A DNA stretch of 37,411 nt from an uncultured Ruminococcus sp. (GTDB lineage: Bacteria > Bacillota > Clostridia > Oscillospirales > Acutalibacteraceae): assembly GCA_902776975.1 (NCBI GenBank), contig CACYSI010000041.1, forward strand, positions 1 to 37,411, written 5' to 3'. Below the pieces are notes generated by a model that saw only the letters and a list, made by a program, of their open reading frames with translations, was not told the DNA's origin and made no database searches. Positions 1,471 to 35,388 of this stretch are shown here, one piece after another. Positions within the stretch are counted from its first letter, which is position 1. Each line of letters starts with the position of its first letter. The translations under genes were made by a program, and so were the position numbers.

Positions 1471-3100
<1,630 letters not shown>

Positions 3101-3101
<1 letters not shown>

Positions 3102-13721: not shown

Positions 13722-14987
13722 ATGAAAATACTTGTCGTTGGCGGCGGCGGACGTGAGCACGCCATAATAAAGAAACTGAAAGAGAATAAAGATATAGATA
13801 AGATATACGCCCTGCCCGGCAACGGCGGTATAGCCGCCGACGCCGAGTGCGTGAGCATAGGAGCTACGGATATAGACGGTATCGTGAGGTTCGCTGTCGA
13901 AAACAGTATCGACTATGCCGTTGTGGCTCCCGATGATCCGCTGGTGCTCGGCTGTGTGGACGCTCTCGAAGAGAAGGGCATCCCATGCTTCGGTCCCCGC
14001 AGTGAAGCCGCGATCATAGAGGGCAGCAAGGTCTTTTCTAAGAATCTAATGAAGAAGTACGGCATACCTACAGCCGCGTATGAGGTCTTTTCCGACGCGG
14101 ACAAGGCACTGGAGTATATCAAGACAGCTCCGATACCTACGGTCATCAAGGCTGACGGCTTGGCTCTCGGCAAGGGAGTCATCATAGCTCAGACGAGAGA
14201 AGAGGCTGAGGACGCCGTTATATCAATAATGAAGGATAAGAAGTTCGGCAAAAGCGGCAACAGCATCGTTATCGAAGAGTTCTTGGAAGGTCCCGAGGTA
14301 AGCGTGCTGAGCTTTACCGACGGCAAGACCGTCGTGCCGATGATCTCATCCATGGATCACAAGCGCGCCGGCGATAACGACACCGGACTCAACACAGGCG
14401 GTATGGGTACTGTAGCTCCGAACCCGTATTATACCGAGGCTGTAGCCCGGGAGTGTATGGATAAGATATTTATCCCGACTATAAACGCTATGAACGCGGA
14501 GGGCAGAACCTTCAAGGGCTGTTTGTACTTCGGTCTGATGATAACAAAGGATGGCCCTAAGGTGATAGAGTACAACTGTCGCTTTGGTGATCCCGAGACT
14601 CAGGTCGTACTGCCTCTGCTCAGATCAGACTTGTTCACTATCATGAGAGCGACTACAGACGGCACGCTCTCTGAGACCGAGGTCGAGTTTTATGATAAAA
14701 AAGCCGCCTGTGTCATCATGGCGAGCGAGGGTTATCCCGTAGCTTATGAAAAGGGCTATGAGATCACGATACCCGATGATATCGCCGACTGTGTGTTTGT
14801 CGCCGGAGCCGCCCACAAGGACGGCAAGCTCCTGACCTCCGGCGGCAGGGTCCTCGGAGTCACGGCGATAGCCGATAGTCTCAAAGAGGCTGTCGACGCC
14901 TCTTACGGCATGGTAGAGAGGATACATTTTGACAACGCTTATTACCGCAGCGATATAGGTAAGAGAGCGTTGGAAGCAGAAGTGTGA
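13722..14987 (+). CDS. purD: Phosphoribosylamine-glycine ligase (GAR synthetase)
   Basis: PurD joins phosphoribosylamine to glycine using ATP. The 421 residues show MKILVVGGGGREHAI at the N-terminus, an ATP-grasp fold with TVIKADGLALGKGV, the loop NTGGMGTVAP, and YNCRFGDPETQVVLPL at the metal/ATP site. The start is the ATG behind AAGGAG at 13709-13714. The frame is open 93 bases further upstream, but that part runs through the hairpin repeats and is not protein-like. purL follows after about 30 bases with its own Shine-Dalgarno sequence. Confidence 0.95.
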   Translation: MKILVVGGGGREHAIIKKLKENKDIDKIYALPGNGGIAADAECVSIGATDIDGIVRFAVENSIDYAVVAPDDPLVLGCVDALEEKGIPCFGPRSEAAIIEGSKVFSKNLMKKYGIPTAAYEVFSDADKALEYIKTAPIPTVIKADGLALGKGVIIAQTREEAEDAVISIMKDKKFGKSGNSIVIEEFLEGPEVSVLSFTDGKTVVPMISSMDHKRAGDNDTGLNTGGMGTVAPNPYYTEAVARECMDKIFIPTINAMNAEGRTFKGCLYFGLMITKDGPKVIEYNCRFGDPETQVVLPLLRSDLFTIMRATTDGTLSETEVEFYDKKAACVIMASEGYPVAYEKGYEITIPDDIADCVFVAGAAHKDGKLLTSGGRVLGVTAIADSLKEAVDASYGMVERIHFDNAYYRSDIGKRALEAEV

Positions 14988-15018
14988 CATAGTTTTTTGT
15001 TGCCTACGGAGGATAAAA

Positions 15019-18000
15019 ATGGTTTATAGAATCTATGTAGAAAAACGAGAGGGTCTTCGGAACGAGGCTAAGGCTCTGCTCAGCGACGTCAACAATCTGC
15101 TGTCGATAAGCTCGCTGACCGATGTGCGTATCATCAACCGTTACGACGCTGAGGATATCGACAAGGAGCTTTTTGACTATGCTGTAGGCGCGGTGTTCTC
15201 TGAGCCGCAGCTCGATATCGCAAGCCCGGAGATAGATACAACAGGCGCGTACACCTTTGCTGTAGAGTATCTGCCGGGACAGTTCGACCAGCGCGCGGAC
15301 TCCGCCGCTCAGTGTATACAGATCATATCGCAGGGCGAGCGTCCGCTTATACGCTCGGCTAAGGTGTATGTTCTGTACGGTGATCTGACAGACTCTGAGA
15401 TAGCAGAGATCAAGAAGTACGTCATCAACCCCGTTGAGGCGAGAGAGGCTGCTCTTGAGAAGCCCGAGACCTTGGCGGTAAAATATGAGATCCCGACAGA
15501 GGTAAAGACTCTCGACGGATTTAACGAGCTTGACAGAGAGGGCTTGGAGAAGTTTGTGGCCGATTACGGTCTTGCCATGGACGCTGACGATATAGCCTTC
15601 TGTCAGCGGTATTTCATCAGCGAACGCAGAGATCCCACCATCACCGAGATCCGCATGATAGATACTTACTGGTCGGATCACTGCCGTCATACTACCTTTT
15701 TGACCACTATCGACAGCGTCAGGTTTGATGATGAGCTTTTACAGAGCGCGTATGATGAATATATAGATGTAAGAAAGGGCTTGGGCAGGACAAAGCCTGT
15801 CTGCCTGATGGATCTGGCGACTATCGCGGTTCGCCGGCTCAAAAAGGACGGAAAACTCGATAAGCTCGTGCTCCTGTTCAAGAATGAGACTCATAACCAT
15901 CCCACCGAGATAGAGCCCTTCGGCGGAGCCGCTACCTGTATCGGCGGCGCTATCCGCGATCCGCTTTCGGGACGCTCGTATGTCTACGGCGCTATGCGTG
16001 TCACGGGCGCGGCAGATCCGACGGTCCCGGTATCAGAGACTATCGAGGGCAAACTGCCTCAGCGTAAGCTCGTTACCACTGCCGCCGCGGGCTACAGCTC
16101 ATACGGCAACCAGATCGGTCTTGCCACAGGTATCGTAGACGAGCTGTATCATCCCGGCTACGCCGCAAAGCGTATGGAGATCGGCGCGGTTATCGCTGCC
16201 GCTCCGGCTGAGAACGTCAGACGAGAGGTACCCGCTCCCGGTGATGTGGTCATCCTGCTCGGCGGAGCGACCGGACGCGACGGCATCGGCGGAGCTACAG
16301 GCTCTTCCAAGGCGCACAACGCTCATTCGGTAGAGACCTGCGGAGCTGAGGTGCAGAAGGGCAACGCTCCCGAGGAGCGCAAGCTGCAGAGACTCTTCCG
16401 CAAGAAAGAAGCTACCCGGATGATAAAGCGCTGCAACGATTTCGGCGCGGGCGGCGTATCGGTAGCTATCGGCGAGCTTGCCGACGGTCTGGATATAGAT
16501 CTTAACGCTGTTCCTAAGAAGTATGAGGGTCTGGACGGCACTGAGCTGGCTATCTCAGAGTCACAGGAGCGTATGGCGGTAGTCGTAGCTCCCGAAGACG
16601 CCGACAAGTTCATTGAGCTTGCTTACGGTGAGAACCTGAGCGCCTGTGTGGTAGCTGTCGTAAAGGCTGAGCCGAGACTCACCATGACCTGGAACGGCAA
16701 GAAAATAGTTGATATCAGCCGTGAGTTCCTTAACTCTAACGGCGCTGAGAAGCATATAGATATAACTCCCGCCGCTCCCGAGAGCTTTGATAAGGATATA
16801 AGCGGCAGCTTTACCGATAACTTCAAGGCGATGGCGGCTGATCTTAATATCTGCTCTAAGCGCGGACTATCGGAGCGTTTTGACTCTACTATCGGCGCGG
16901 GTACCGTGCTGATGCCCTTCGGCGGCAAAAACCAGCTCACGCCTATCCAGGCTATGGTGCAGAAGGTATCTGTAGAGAAAAAGCATACCGATACCGTATC
17001 GCTGATGTCTTGGGGCTATAACCCGATGATAGCTGAGAAAAGTCCTTATCACAGCGCTTATCTCGCCGTGGTCGAGTCGGTTTCTAAGCTGATAGCTGCA
17101 GGCGCGTCATTTGAGGACGTGTATCTGACCTTCCAGGAGTATTTTGAGAAGCCCGGTACAGACGGCAAGCGCTGGGGCAAGCCTCTGGCGGCTCTGCTCG
17201 GAGCGTTCAAAGCTCAGATGAACCTCGGTATAGGCTCGATCGGCGGTAAGGACAGCATGAGCGGCAGCTTTGAGAAGCTCGATGTACCGCCTACGCTGGT
17301 ATCGTTTGCCGTTACCACCGATAAGGCTGAAAATATAATTTCGCCCGAGTATAAGGGAGCCGGCAATAAGGTCCGGCTGCTCGCTCCCGACTATGACGAG
17401 AACGGTCTGCCTGTGACCGAGAGCCTGATCGCTCTGTACAATAAGGTCACCACTCTGATGCGTGAGGGCAGGGTGTGCTCTGCTTATACGCCGACTATCG
17501 GCGGTATAGCCGAGGCGGTGATGAAATCCGCGTTCGGTAACGGTTTCGGATTTGATTTCAATACCGATGTCTCTATAGATAAGCTCTTCGGCTATTGCTA
17601 CGGAGCGTTCCTGCTCGAGACTGACGGGGATATAGACGGCGAGCTCATCGGAACGGTCACGGATGACGGTAAGTTCACCTACGGCAGTGAGAGCTTAGAC
17701 GCAGGCGATATATTAAAGGTATACGAGGACAAGCTCGAAGGCGTATACTCATGCAACATCCCCGACACAGGCGCGCCTGTAAAAACTTTCAGCTACATAA
17801 AAGAGAACAAAGATTCTGCCGCGGCAGCGGCTCCTGCGGTCAAGACAGCCTGTCCTAAGGTGCTTATCCCCGCTTTCCCGGGCACTAACTGCGAGTATGA
17901 CTCAGCTAAGGCTATGGCTGACGCCGGCGCCGAGCCTGAGATAATCGTCATAAACAACCTCAGCGCCGAGGGCATACAGGCGAGCGTCGAGAGATTCGCT

Positions 18001-18648
18001 CAGGCGCTCAAGACGGCGCAGATGATATTCATACCCGGAGGCTTTTCCGGCGGCGACGAGCCCGACGGCTCCGCTAAGTTCATCACGGCTTTCTTCCGCA
18101 ACGCCGCCGTCAAAGAGGGCGTTACCGATCTGCTCGACAACAGAGGCGGTCTGATGTGCGGTATCTGTAACGGCTTTCAGGCGCTTATCAAGCTTGGTCT
18201 GGTGCCTTACGGAAAGATCATAGATACCGACGAGAACTGTCCCACTCTGACATACAACACAATCTCGCGACATCAGAGTAGAATCGTTCGCACACGGGTA
18301 AGCTCGAATAAGAGTCCGTGGCTTTCGCTTACTAATGTGGGAGATGTGTATACTGTACCGATTTCTCACGGCGAGGGTCGCTTCTACGCGAGCGAGGAGC
18401 TGATCCGTCAGTTAGCTGAGAACGGTCAGATCGCGACTCAGTATGTTGATTTACAGGGGAACGCTGCTACAGACGTACATTTCAACCCGAACAACTCTGC
18501 ATACGCGATCGAGGGTATAACCTCTCCCGACGGCAGAGTCTTCGGCAAGATGGGTCACAGTGAGCGTAAGGGCAGCTATCTGTATAAGAACGTACCCGGT
18601 AATTATGACATAAGGATGTTCGATGCCGCTGTAAAGTATTTTAAATAA
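15019..18648 (+). CDS. purL: Phosphoribosylformylglycinamidine synthase, single-chain clostridial type
   Basis: PurL turns FGAR into FGAM using glutamine and ATP. At 1,209 residues it is a single chain with a PurS-like N-terminal part, two PurM-like halves and a C-terminal glutaminase. NHPTEIEPFGGAATCIGG and DFGAGGVSVAIGEL mark the synthetase part. The glutaminase begins about residue 950 with IPAFPGTNCEYDSA, and its nucleophile is Cys1050 in GICNGFQAL; HGEGRFYA follows. The length and arrangement fit the long clostridial form rather than separate PurS/PurQ/PurL. The start follows CGGAGGA. It is the last gene of the purine cluster, and the converging minus-strand gene begins about 100 bases on. 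Confidence 0.96.
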   Translation: MVYRIYVEKREGLRNEAKALLSDVNNLLSISSLTDVRIINRYDAEDIDKELFDYAVGAVFSEPQLDIASPEIDTTGAYTFAVEYLPGQFDQRADSAAQCIQIISQGERPLIRSAKVYVLYGDLTDSEIAEIKKYVINPVEAREAALEKPETLAVKYEIPTEVKTLDGFNELDREGLEKFVADYGLAMDADDIAFCQRYFISERRDPTITEIRMIDTYWSDHCRHTTFLTTIDSVRFDDELLQSAYDEYIDVRKGLGRTKPVCLMDLATIAVRRLKKDGKLDKLVLLFKNETHNHPTEIEPFGGAATCIGGAIRDPLSGRSYVYGAMRVTGAADPTVPVSETIEGKLPQRKLVTTAAAGYSSYGNQIGLATGIVDELYHPGYAAKRMEIGAVIAAAPAENVRREVPAPGDVVILLGGATGRDGIGGATGSSKAHNAHSVETCGAEVQKGNAPEERKLQRLFRKKEATRMIKRCNDFGAGGVSVAIGELADGLDIDLNAVPKKYEGLDGTELAISESQERMAVVVAPEDADKFIELAYGENLSACVVAVVKAEPRLTMTWNGKKIVDISREFLNSNGAEKHIDITPAAPESFDKDISGSFTDNFKAMAADLNICSKRGLSERFDSTIGAGTVLMPFGGKNQLTPIQAMVQKVSVEKKHTDTVSLMSWGYNPMIAEKSPYHSAYLAVVESVSKLIAAGASFEDVYLTFQEYFEKPGTDGKRWGKPLAALLGAFKAQMNLGIGSIGGKDSMSGSFEKLDVPPTLVSFAVTTDKAENIISPEYKGAGNKVRLLAPDYDENGLPVTESLIALYNKVTTLMREGRVCSAYTPTIGGIAEAVMKSAFGNGFGFDFNTDVSIDKLFGYCYGAFLLETDGDIDGELIGTVTDDGKFTYGSESLDAGDILKVYEDKLEGVYSCNIPDTGAPVKTFSYIKENKDSAAAAAPAVKTACPKVLIPAFPGTNCEYDSAKAMADAGAEPEIIVINNLSAEGIQASVERFAQALKTAQMIFIPGGFSGGDEPDGSAKFITAFFRNAAVKEGVTDLLDNRGGLMCGICNGFQALIKLGLVPYGKIIDTDENCPTLTYNTISRHQSRIVRTRVSSNKSPWLSLTNVGDVYTVPISHGEGRFYASEELIRQLAENGQIATQYVDLQGNAATDVHFNPNNSAYAIEGITSPDGRVFGKMGHSERKGSYLYKNVPGNYDIRMFDAAVKYFK

Positions 18649-19711: not shown

Positions 19712-19985
19712 TGTGTGACTGCACAATGATATGCGTTGAAGCGGGAGGTTGCAACCTTATAGGTTGGTTTTTCCGTGGAGTATGTCCGATTTTAAACCGG
19801 GCGAAAGAATAGTTTGAGTTTTACTTGGCATTGGGGTTGCTATGCCATGCTGCTCGAGATCCGCTTCCGGTTGCCGCTTTGCGGCTATCGGCTTTTTTAA
19901 CGGATAGGGTAGGAACACCCGGGCGGGTGTTTGAAAAGTTCGACATATTCTTCGGTCACCCAAACAATATTTAGGAGGCGAAGAT
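19712..19985 (+). promoter_or_regulatory. Structured 5' leader of the S10 operon
   Basis: This leader of about 270 bases contains several foldable parts. AGGTTG-CAACCT-tat-AGGTTG at 19746-19766 is followed by GTTTTT and allows two mutually exclusive pairings. A TGGCAT/ATGCCA stem lies at 19826-19847. A strong terminator-like hairpin with six T residues lies at 19867-19898. The rpsJ ribosome-binding site TAGGAGG is at its end. The layout suggests attenuation by a ribosomal protein or growth-rate signal. I do not recognise a named Rfam family. Confidence 0.55.
19867..19898 (+). terminator. Intrinsic-terminator-like hairpin inside the S10 leader (candidate attenuator)
   Basis: CCGGT-t-GCCGC pairs with GCGGC-t-ATCGG around a ttt loop: ten pairs including one G-U, with a single T/T mismatch. 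The stem is followed by C and six T residues. It lies 87 bases before the rpsJ start codon and about 155 bases after the expected transcription start, so it could regulate read-through into the whole ribosomal operon. Confidence 0.65.
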
Positions 19986-23448: not shown

Positions 23449-23467
23449 GGCAAAGGAGAGTAAGAGA

Positions 23468-23803
23468 ATGGAAAGTAAGGCATATCTGAATTATGTCCGT
23501 ATCTCACCTCGCAAGGTTTCCATCATCCTCAACCTCATCAGAGGCAAGGATGTCAAGCTCGCGAAGGCTATTCTTGAGCAGACTCCCAAGGCCGCTTGCG
23601 AGCCGCTGCTGAAGCTGCTCAAGTCAGCTATGGCAAATGCTGAGAATAACCACGATATGGACGTGGCCAGCCTCTATGTAGCAGAGTGCTATGTAGGTCA
23701 GGGCCCCACACTCAAGCGTATCCGTCCCAGAGCACAGGGCAGAGCCTTCCGCATTGATAAGAAGACCTCGCACATCACCATGGTGCTCAAGGAAAGAGAA
23801 TAA
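23468..23803 (+). CDS. rplV: 50S ribosomal protein L22
   Basis: L22 lines the exit tunnel with an extended beta hairpin. The chosen ATG follows AAAGGAGAG and gives [17 protein letters not shown], 111 residues, the family's normal length. A longer open frame reaches back into rpsS but has no support. The hairpin region reads [18 protein letters not shown], intact. It is followed by rpsC after 12 bases. Confidence 0.96.
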
Positions 23804-27347: not shown

Positions 27348-27887
27348 ATGTCTCGAATTGGAAGAAAACCTATAAATATTCCCGCCGGTGTCGAAGCTAA
27401 GTTTGAAAACGGCGTTATGACAGTCAAGGGTCCCAAGGGTCAGCTGACCCAGAAGATCAACCCCAACATGACTGTAGAAATCAATGGGGCAGTTATCGAG
27501 GTAAAGCGTCCTGACGATGAGAAGCTCAACCGCTCTCTGCACGGACTTACCCGTACTATCATCCACAACATGGTCGTCGGCGTTACCGAGGGTTACAAAA
27601 AGGAGCTCGAGGTCAACGGCGTAGGCTACCGTGTTCAGAAGCAGGGCAACAAGCTCGTTATGAACATCGGCTACAGCCACCAGGTTATCGTTGAGGAGAC
27701 TGAGGATATCAAGATCGACGTCCCCAACCCCAACAGCATCGTTATCCACGGCATTGATAAGCAAAAGGTTGGTCAGTTTGCTGCCGAGGTAAGAGAGAAA
27801 CGTCCGCCGGAGCCTTACAAGGGTAAGGGCATCAAGTATGCCGGTGAGTATATCCGCCGTAAGGAAGGCAAGGCCGGTAAGGCTTAA
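27348..27887 (+). CDS. rplF: 50S ribosomal protein L6
   Basis: L6 lies near the sarcin-ricin loop and the factor-binding site. The 179 residues begin SRIGRKPINIPAGVEAKF and end with KRPPEPYKGKGIKYA-like RPPEPYKGKGIKYAGEYI. Length and motifs are standard. The gene is followed after 18 bases by the broken rplR. Confidence 0.97.
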   Translation: MSRIGRKPINIPAGVEAKFENGVMTVKGPKGQLTQKINPNMTVEINGAVIEVKRPDDEKLNRSLHGLTRTIIHNMVVGVTEGYKKELEVNGVGYRVQKQGNKLVMNIGYSHQVIVEETEDIKIDVPNPNSIVIHGIDKQKVGQFAAEVREKRPPEPYKGKGIKYAGEYIRRKEGKAGKA

Positions 27888-27905: not shown

Positions 27906-28167
27906 ATGGTAAGTAGACCTGATTCGAAAGCTGCTCGTGTCAAAAGACACAAGAGAGTACGCGGTAAGTTAAGCGGCACAGCCGAGTGTCCCCGCCTTTG
28001 TGTGCGGCGGCAACAAAGATGCTGCTAAGGCAGTAGGCAAGCTCATCGCTGAGCGCGCAAAAGAAAAGAACATCACCGATGTCGTATTTGACAGAGGCGG
28101 TAACATCTATCACGGCCGTGTACAAGCGTTGGCCGAAGGCGCCCGTGAGGGCGGCCTCAATTTCTAA
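27906..28167 (+). pseudogene. rplR: 50S ribosomal protein L18, disrupted by an out-of-frame deletion
   Basis: L18 carries 5S rRNA into the large subunit with L5 and is normally about 120 residues. Here the ATG at 27906 begins [18 protein letters not shown] and runs to GTAECPRL, then hits a stop at 28026-28028. The normal C-terminal half ([18 protein letters not shown] onward, ending EGGLNF, TAA at 28165-28167) is present but in the +1-shifted frame. About 34 residues are missing between the halves, so roughly 100 bases (not a multiple of three) are lost at a junction near 27999-28005 (tttgtgtgc). Loss of an essential, single-copy ribosomal protein is biologically unlikely, so a sequencing or assembly error is a serious possibility. 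Confidence 0.85.
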
Positions 28168-28185
28168 GGATTGGAGGAATTAACT

Positions 28186-28686
28186 TTGGCTAATATTATT
28201 GACGCATCTACACTGGAGCTTACAGAGCGCGTTGTAGCTATCAACCGCGTATCTAAGACTGTTAAGGGCGGCCGTGTCATGAAGTTTGCCGCACTGGTAG
28301 TTGTCGGCAACGGCGACGGCATAGTAGGCTTCGGTATCGGCAAGGCCGGTGAGGTTCCCGACGCGATCCGCAAGGGAATCGAGGACGCTAAAAAGCACCT
28401 TATGACAGTAGCCCTCAAGGGCACCACAATTCCGCACGAGATCATCGGCGCTTACGGCGCGGGCAGAGTTCTGATGAAGCCCGCCGCTCCCGGTACCGGC
28501 GTTATCGCGGGCGGTCCCGTGCGTGCCGTAGTTGAGGCTGTAGGCATCAAGGACATCCGTACCAAGGCTCTGCGCTCCAACAACCCCTGCAACGTAGTAA
28601 GAGCTACACTTCAGGGACTGGGCGCTCTGCGTACCGCCGAGCAGGTAGCTCGCGTTCGCGGTAAGTCCGTAAAAGAGATTCTGTAA
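28186..28686 (+). CDS. rpsE: 30S ribosomal protein S5
   Basis: S5 contributes to translational accuracy. The 166 residues include [21 protein letters not shown]-type start of the double-stranded RNA-binding fold and [20 protein letters not shown]. The start codon appears to be TTG eight bases after GGAGG at 28173-28177; an earlier TTG lies upstream of this Shine-Dalgarno and is unlikely. No ATG is available near the start. Confidence 0.93.
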
Positions 28687-33726: not shown

Positions 33727-34362
33727 ATGGCTAAGAATTCACAGCCTATCGCAAAGCGCTGCAGAGCGCTGGGCATTTCACCCGCTGTTATGGGTTACAG
33801 CAAGAAGACCTCTAACCGTAATCCCGGCGGTAAGATGAGAAGAAAGCAGAGTGAGTACGGTATCCAGCTCACAGAGAAGCAGAAGGTAAAGTTTATCTAC
33901 GGCGTTCTCGAGAAGCAGTTCCGTATGTACTATGAGAAGGCGGAGAAGATGGAAGGCAAGACAGGTGAGAACCTGCTGTCTCTGGTTGAGCGCAGACTCG
34001 ACAACGTTGTATACCGCCTCGGTTTGGCAGCTACCCGCCGTGAGGCCCGTCAGCTCGTAAACCACGCTCATTTCACTGTAAACGGCAAAAAATGCAACAT
34101 CCCCTCATATATCATTAAGGTCGGCGATGTGATCGCGGTTTCAGACGGCTCTAAGGACACCAACCGCTTCAAGGCTCTCGTAGAGAACGACGCGGCTGTA
34201 CTCATCCCCAAGTGGCTTGAAAAGACCGACAAGCTCAGCGGCAAGGTCATCGCGCTGCCTCAGCGTGACGATATCGACTATCCTGTTGAGGAACACCTCA
34301 TCGTCGAGTTGTACTCCAAGGCGGGCATAGCGGCGCGGCTCGTTCCGCGTTTGCAGAGCTAA
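33727..34362 (+). CDS. rpsD: 30S ribosomal protein S4, zinc-free type, with short C-terminal extension
   Basis: S4 initiates 16S rRNA assembly and influences accuracy. The 211 residues contain [18 protein letters not shown], the S4 RNA-binding domain [20 protein letters not shown] and [12 protein letters not shown]. The N-terminus keeps only one cysteine, so it is the form without the four-Cys zinc site. Family members usually end at ELYSK; here 13 more residues ([13 protein letters not shown]) follow before the stop, which suggests loss of the original stop codon. The effect is probably small. Confidence 0.95.
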
Positions 34363-35338: not shown

Positions 35339-35388
35339 CTATTAGGCGCAAGCCTTGACTTAAATATTCCCGAAAGGAGTGAATATAA

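Follow-up and report, generated by a model that had tools for sequence, protein, structure and literature searches.

The rplR locus

The window analysed here is the whole of contig C41 (37,411 bases), which belongs to a 65-contig draft genome of 2,140,305 bases that is 97.75% complete and 1.91% contaminated. The gene rplR, coding for ribosomal protein uL18 (L18), is located at positions 27906–28167, between rplF and rpsE, and is found there as two remnants on the forward strand. The N-terminal remnant (27906–28004) encodes L18 residues 1–33, as seen in an alignment with 18 relatives, and matches positions 4–34 of PF00861 with 24.9 bits; it gave no match to TIGR00060. The C-terminal remnant (28005–28167) encodes residues 66–118 in the +1 frame and matches positions 62–114 of TIGR00060 with 83.3 bits, under the cut-off of that model (87.85), and PF00861 with 83.9 bits, over the cut-off of 27.8. 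The frame opened at 27906 is ended by a chance stop codon at 28026–28028, after residues 1–33, and residues 66–118 can be read only in the +1 frame, as far as 28167.

Between the two remnants, at 28004..28005, lies the junction of the loss, which has one ambiguous base (G) and no repeat. The loss is a single clean block, of 95 bp when compared with 17 of the 18 aligned relatives and of 98 bp when compared with L052, whose L18 has one extra codon (119 amino acids; the other whole genes among the 18 relatives encode 118). Residues 34–65, that is, 32 residues, are absent, and instead of the one open frame of about 118 codons of a functional uL18 gene there are two frames. The window thus shares with uL18 genes (PF00861, TIGR00060) both ends of rplR and its position in the spc operon, but differs in the missing residues and the broken frame. 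The first-pass annotation had described an out-of-frame deletion of about 100 bases in rplR, with both ends of L18 present and conserved in different reading frames and about 34 central residues missing. The alignment and the frames bear this out at the same coordinates, including the missing central block, with the sizes corrected to 95 bp and 32 residues.

The two break ends have one base in common, the G of the junction. In L016, the relative used for this comparison, the 50-base stretches that surround the break ends have no direct repeat of at least 5 bases in common, and on both grounds a collapse of repeats at the junction was rejected. Two inverted 6-base matches between the break ends were taken as chance. 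When the identities to six relatives were compared on both sides of the junctions, no clear switch that would point to a strain chimera was observed.

L18 in related genomes

A survey of 161 genomes of the genus, that of the window included, gave an L18 match in 100. In 98 of the 99 other matching genomes the L18 frame runs uninterrupted to model position 116, and in the remaining one (G140) L18 is split by contig ends. The match was absent in 61 of the 161 genomes, including 13 of the 81 with a completeness of 90% or more and a contamination of no more than 5%; four further genomes, beyond the 100 with a profile match, matched the region at the DNA level. Drafts without an L18 match are therefore common here, likely because of fragmentation. 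The clade pattern was also found at 17 loci in genome_contigs, in all of which rplR is intact, the deletion being present in none; many of these loci seem to come from the same genomes as the survey, so they are not independent of it. Their titles describe uncultured organisms or MAGs, with three mentions of goat, one of reindeer, and eight RUG names, presumably those of rumen genomes. The same pattern had no match in IMG/VR. No second genome of the window's own species was identified, in searches from which records very near the window may be left out, and the nearest relatives are about 92–93% identical across this stretch.

In the draft itself, neither a second L18 copy nor the missing piece was found beyond the rplR locus, either by a profile search or by a DNA search with the whole gene of a relative, the draft being 97.75% complete. 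The second copy proposed in the first-pass annotation, a full-length rplR elsewhere in the genome that would make this one a true pseudogene, was therefore not encountered in the draft, where only the broken locus is present.

Other lesions on the contig

Lesions of a similar kind were observed in two other genes of the contig, cleanly in purL and less so in rpsD. The gene purL (15019–18648, forward strand), which encodes phosphoribosylformylglycinamidine synthase, lacks 24 codons at 15868|15869, and its reading frame stays open. The 72 bp are present in 6/6 relatives, and the loss, clean and in frame, is unique to the window in this comparison; judged by eye, its break ends share no base. In the PurL of the window, TIGR01857 is matched only at 2–288 and 311–1239. 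The gene is single-copy in the draft. PurL was matched in 151 of the 161 genomes of the genus and, counting among the matches listed, was uninterrupted between position 1 or 2 and position 1239 in at least 119 of the 161, the other listed matches being partial.

In rpsD (S4; 33727–34362, forward strand), the usual stop codon is lost at 34320|34321 and the frame extends for 13 residues to 34362; all six relatives stop at the same codon. The spacer between rpsD and rpoA is about 100 bp shorter in the window than in the relative G137. Because the spacer 3' of rpsD differs in length among relatives, this lesion is less certain than the losses in rplR and purL, and could be natural. The earlier statement that all surrounding ribosomal genes are intact consequently holds for the immediate neighbors of rplR, but not for rpsD, on the same contig. 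Short spacers at about 14,985–15,015 and 35,349–35,369 have longer counterparts in several of the six relatives, though not in every one, and were not counted as lesions. A 2-base difference at the 3' end of the ORF at 2154–3101 looks like a natural gene-end difference, and single-base differences near 19727, 23461–23468, and 33703 are outside coding sequence, by eye.

To serve as a control, a comparison with G137 was also made for nine stretches that lie on three further contigs of this genome. In the 139,957 bases aligned outside the window, this genome showed two clean gaps of at least 20 bp, both intergenic, and no clean loss of that size inside a gene; the 31,888 aligned bases of the window also contained two, both within genes. 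Against a second relative, G021, with lower coverage and two stretches without any, only the two gaps of the window were found. A genome-wide tendency to lose sequence was rejected, as the outside candidates, L153:676 and L156:1066, are both intergenic; the 64 bp of the first are missing from G021 as well. In the reverse direction, G137 had two clean gaps of at least 20 bp, both in the region of the window. One of them is an in-frame gap of 24 bp near the end of rpsC that is common to G137 and G102, indicating that clean in-frame indels arise naturally in the clade. At the protein level, internal gaps of at least 12 residues were observed in 1/43 ORFs of the window vs. 0/143 elsewhere, in a scan that raised many further flags, most of them for shadow ORFs or for stops lying upstream of a start. 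As one of the lesions was the reason for choosing this window, their clustering is weak evidence, suggestive at most.

Selection on the remnants and importance of L18

Over 85 codons, the rplR remnants differ from the gene of G137 by eight silent changes and one replacement. If three quarters of random changes were replacements, the probability of finding one or none among nine would be about 1e-4. Judging by these changes, rplR is still under selection or was until recently, although the RNA fold described below may be responsible for some of the conservation of silent sites close to the 3' end. The pattern speaks against an old pseudogene, but not against a recent deletion or an artefact.

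In both Escherichia coli and Bacillus subtilis, rplR belongs to the essential genes. The draft retains one 5S rRNA gene (83.2 bits), and uL18 is described as one of the three bacterial proteins that bind 5S rRNA (PMC10931766). In a study of Mollicutes, rplR is listed among the 79 core genes used for the tree, and the same source refers to systematic deletion studies of ribosomal protein genes, with 24/55 in E. coli and 22/57 in B. subtilis (PMC4014445). By sequence comparison, the L18 of an intact relative aligns end to end and gap-free with the solved chain 7nhk_R. A second chain, 1ily_A, has 90 residues and corresponds to L18 residues 30–118. As the loss removes 32 of those 89 residues, recoding by a frameshift could not restore a normal L18.

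Origin of the break

In our view, the contig very probably contains pieces that were joined over short gaps left unassembled, and the organism itself very probably has an intact L18. The draft would be a metagenome-assembled genome, in which contig pieces were presumably butt-joined end to end over unassembled gaps of about 70–105 bp; such joins would account for the bases that rplR, purL, and the rpsD end have lost, and the living strain would have a whole L18. Losses of 72 and 95 bp with no or one common base, together with a third of about 100 bp, are what is expected if pieces are joined end to end across gaps. Because similar damage is seen in two more genes of the contig, and because rplR is whole in the relatives examined, an assembly mistake is most likely, rather than life without L18. 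This reading is also supported by the clean rplR loss without a repeat, the absence of the other two lesions from the six relatives, the lack of a second L18 in the draft, the retention of the 5S rRNA gene, and the mostly silent changes in the remnants. Against it, two of the three lesions leave the frame unbroken (the purL loss is in frame and S4 is just extended), the one in rpsD could be natural, and clean in-frame indels do occur naturally in the clade. The fault would be a local one, since the genes in the nine control stretches, drawn from three further contigs, showed nothing similar. The first-pass annotation had considered a collapse of sequence by the assembly at tttgtgtgc; an assembly fault is indeed best supported, but the collapse mechanism is not, as no repeat is present there.

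The other explanations are far less probable. A real, very recent deletion in the sampled cells, leaving a compromised sub-population or L18 function provided by an intact copy outside the draft, seems improbable: about 2% of the genome may be missing from a draft of this completeness, and remnants without decay are as expected of a recent event, but the profile and DNA searches of the draft gave no other copy or fragment, and purL and rpsD would need to have been hit too. Still less probable is that the lineage truly lives without a normal L18. We give the same very small credence to the picture that would follow, of a gut-type bacterium whose genome measures about 2.1 Mb, whose L18 gene consists of two out-of-frame ends, and whose ribosome would thus dock 5S rRNA without the L18 core. 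The draft does lack a complete L18, and a reduced symbiont genome, bcc, which we take to be that of a Buchnera, can be set beside it. For that cosymbiont, rplR is reported as absent (PMC9035817), which is in favor of such a life and makes bcc, like the window's draft, a genome without a complete rplR; unlike bcc, however, the 2.14-Mb draft keeps both ends of the gene conserved. Tolerance of the loss, also raised in the first-pass annotation, gained no positive support, given the retained 5S rRNA gene, the remnants that look selected (eight silent changes vs. one replacement), the whole L18 of nearly all other matching genomes of the genus, and the two further lesions on the contig. For a genome this large to have lost L18 would be striking, and the present case is unfit to support such a claim. 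Hardly credible, finally, is a programmed +1 frameshift that joins the remnants into a short working L18. The reading frame of either remnant stays open as far as the junction, and the two would be connected by a +1 shift, but the product would still be without 32 residues of the domain, as compared with 7nhk_R and 1ily_A; moreover, the split was found in no relative in the genus survey, and no known type of slip site was seen by eye.

The joining of contig pieces that we favor would be an instance of metagenomic misassembly, the subject of metaMIC (PMC9661791), which likewise deals with errors within contigs of metagenome-derived drafts. Tools of that type use reads, whereas the join mechanism proposed here was inferred from the assembled sequence. 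If this explanation is right, a draft with good completeness figures can hide several silent losses of about 70–105 bp in core genes, and surveys of gene loss as well as marker alignments would be misled by them.

A conserved RNA fold at the rplR/rpsE boundary

A conserved RNA fold, which could matter more for biology than the break in rplR, spans the 3' end of rplR and the start of rpsE (28126–28193, forward strand) and is intact in the window, where it scores 94.8 bits. Among 31 relatives of the genus, the last 12 sense codons of rplR are nearly invariant, even at silent positions; at third positions their conservation is 0.987, more than in any other of the 647 twelve-codon stretches compared across six spc genes (median 0.637). 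The end of rplR together with the start region of rpsE folds with −29.5 kcal/mol (z −3.06), and 1 of 200 shuffles was as good. A ten-pair stem, with a GNRA-type hairpin inside, pairs the rplR side with the neighborhood of the TTG at 28186; this TTG is regarded as the start codon of rpsE because GGAGG precedes it.

An RNA model built from 17 sequences matched 239 of 300 genomes of the family and 117 of 135 genera, part of this signal being that of protein coding. Pairs were counted in 36 distinct sequences, which came from the matches with the best scores and had been fitted to this model. Paired cells make up 96.2% vs. 95.5% in shuffles; two pairs changed on both sides, a number reached by 42/500 shuffles, and the cells changed on both sides amounted to 12 vs. 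a shuffle mean of 4.5, reached by 0/500. Support from covariation is moderate. The third helix is a weak one: 19 sequences cannot form one of its pairs. For 25 of 26 loci from other genera, TTTGGC follows the rplR stop codon in 25/25, a partly circular result, since the loci were chosen by a seed string of the element; the variable silent sites in these loci include the N of the GNRA loop. Six records from outside the genus, obtained from a plasmid collection by a distant DNA search, served as an outgroup. In four of them the match is weaker (46.4 to 16.0 bits) and pairs are broken, and the other two gave no match; in the five that are annotated, rpsE starts with ATG.

These features make the fold a candidate element that likely controls the translation of rpsE. 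It is possibly undescribed: in Rfam it had no match at the gathering score or at E values up to 1, and neither uS5 nor L18 appears in the main text of a 2020 paper on 20 ribosomal leaders (PMC7247131).

The second highest silent-position conservation of the 647 stretches (0.981) was observed at the start of rplF (27351–27386, forward strand), and maybe a further element exists at the rpsH/rplF boundary. Upstream of the S10 operon there is an S10-Clostridia ribosomal protein leader, of the known family RF03136 (19727–19804, forward strand; 54 bits). Elsewhere in this genome, at L083:18713-18879, there is a dispersed element, about 165 bp long, with matches at many sites in the genomes of relatives.
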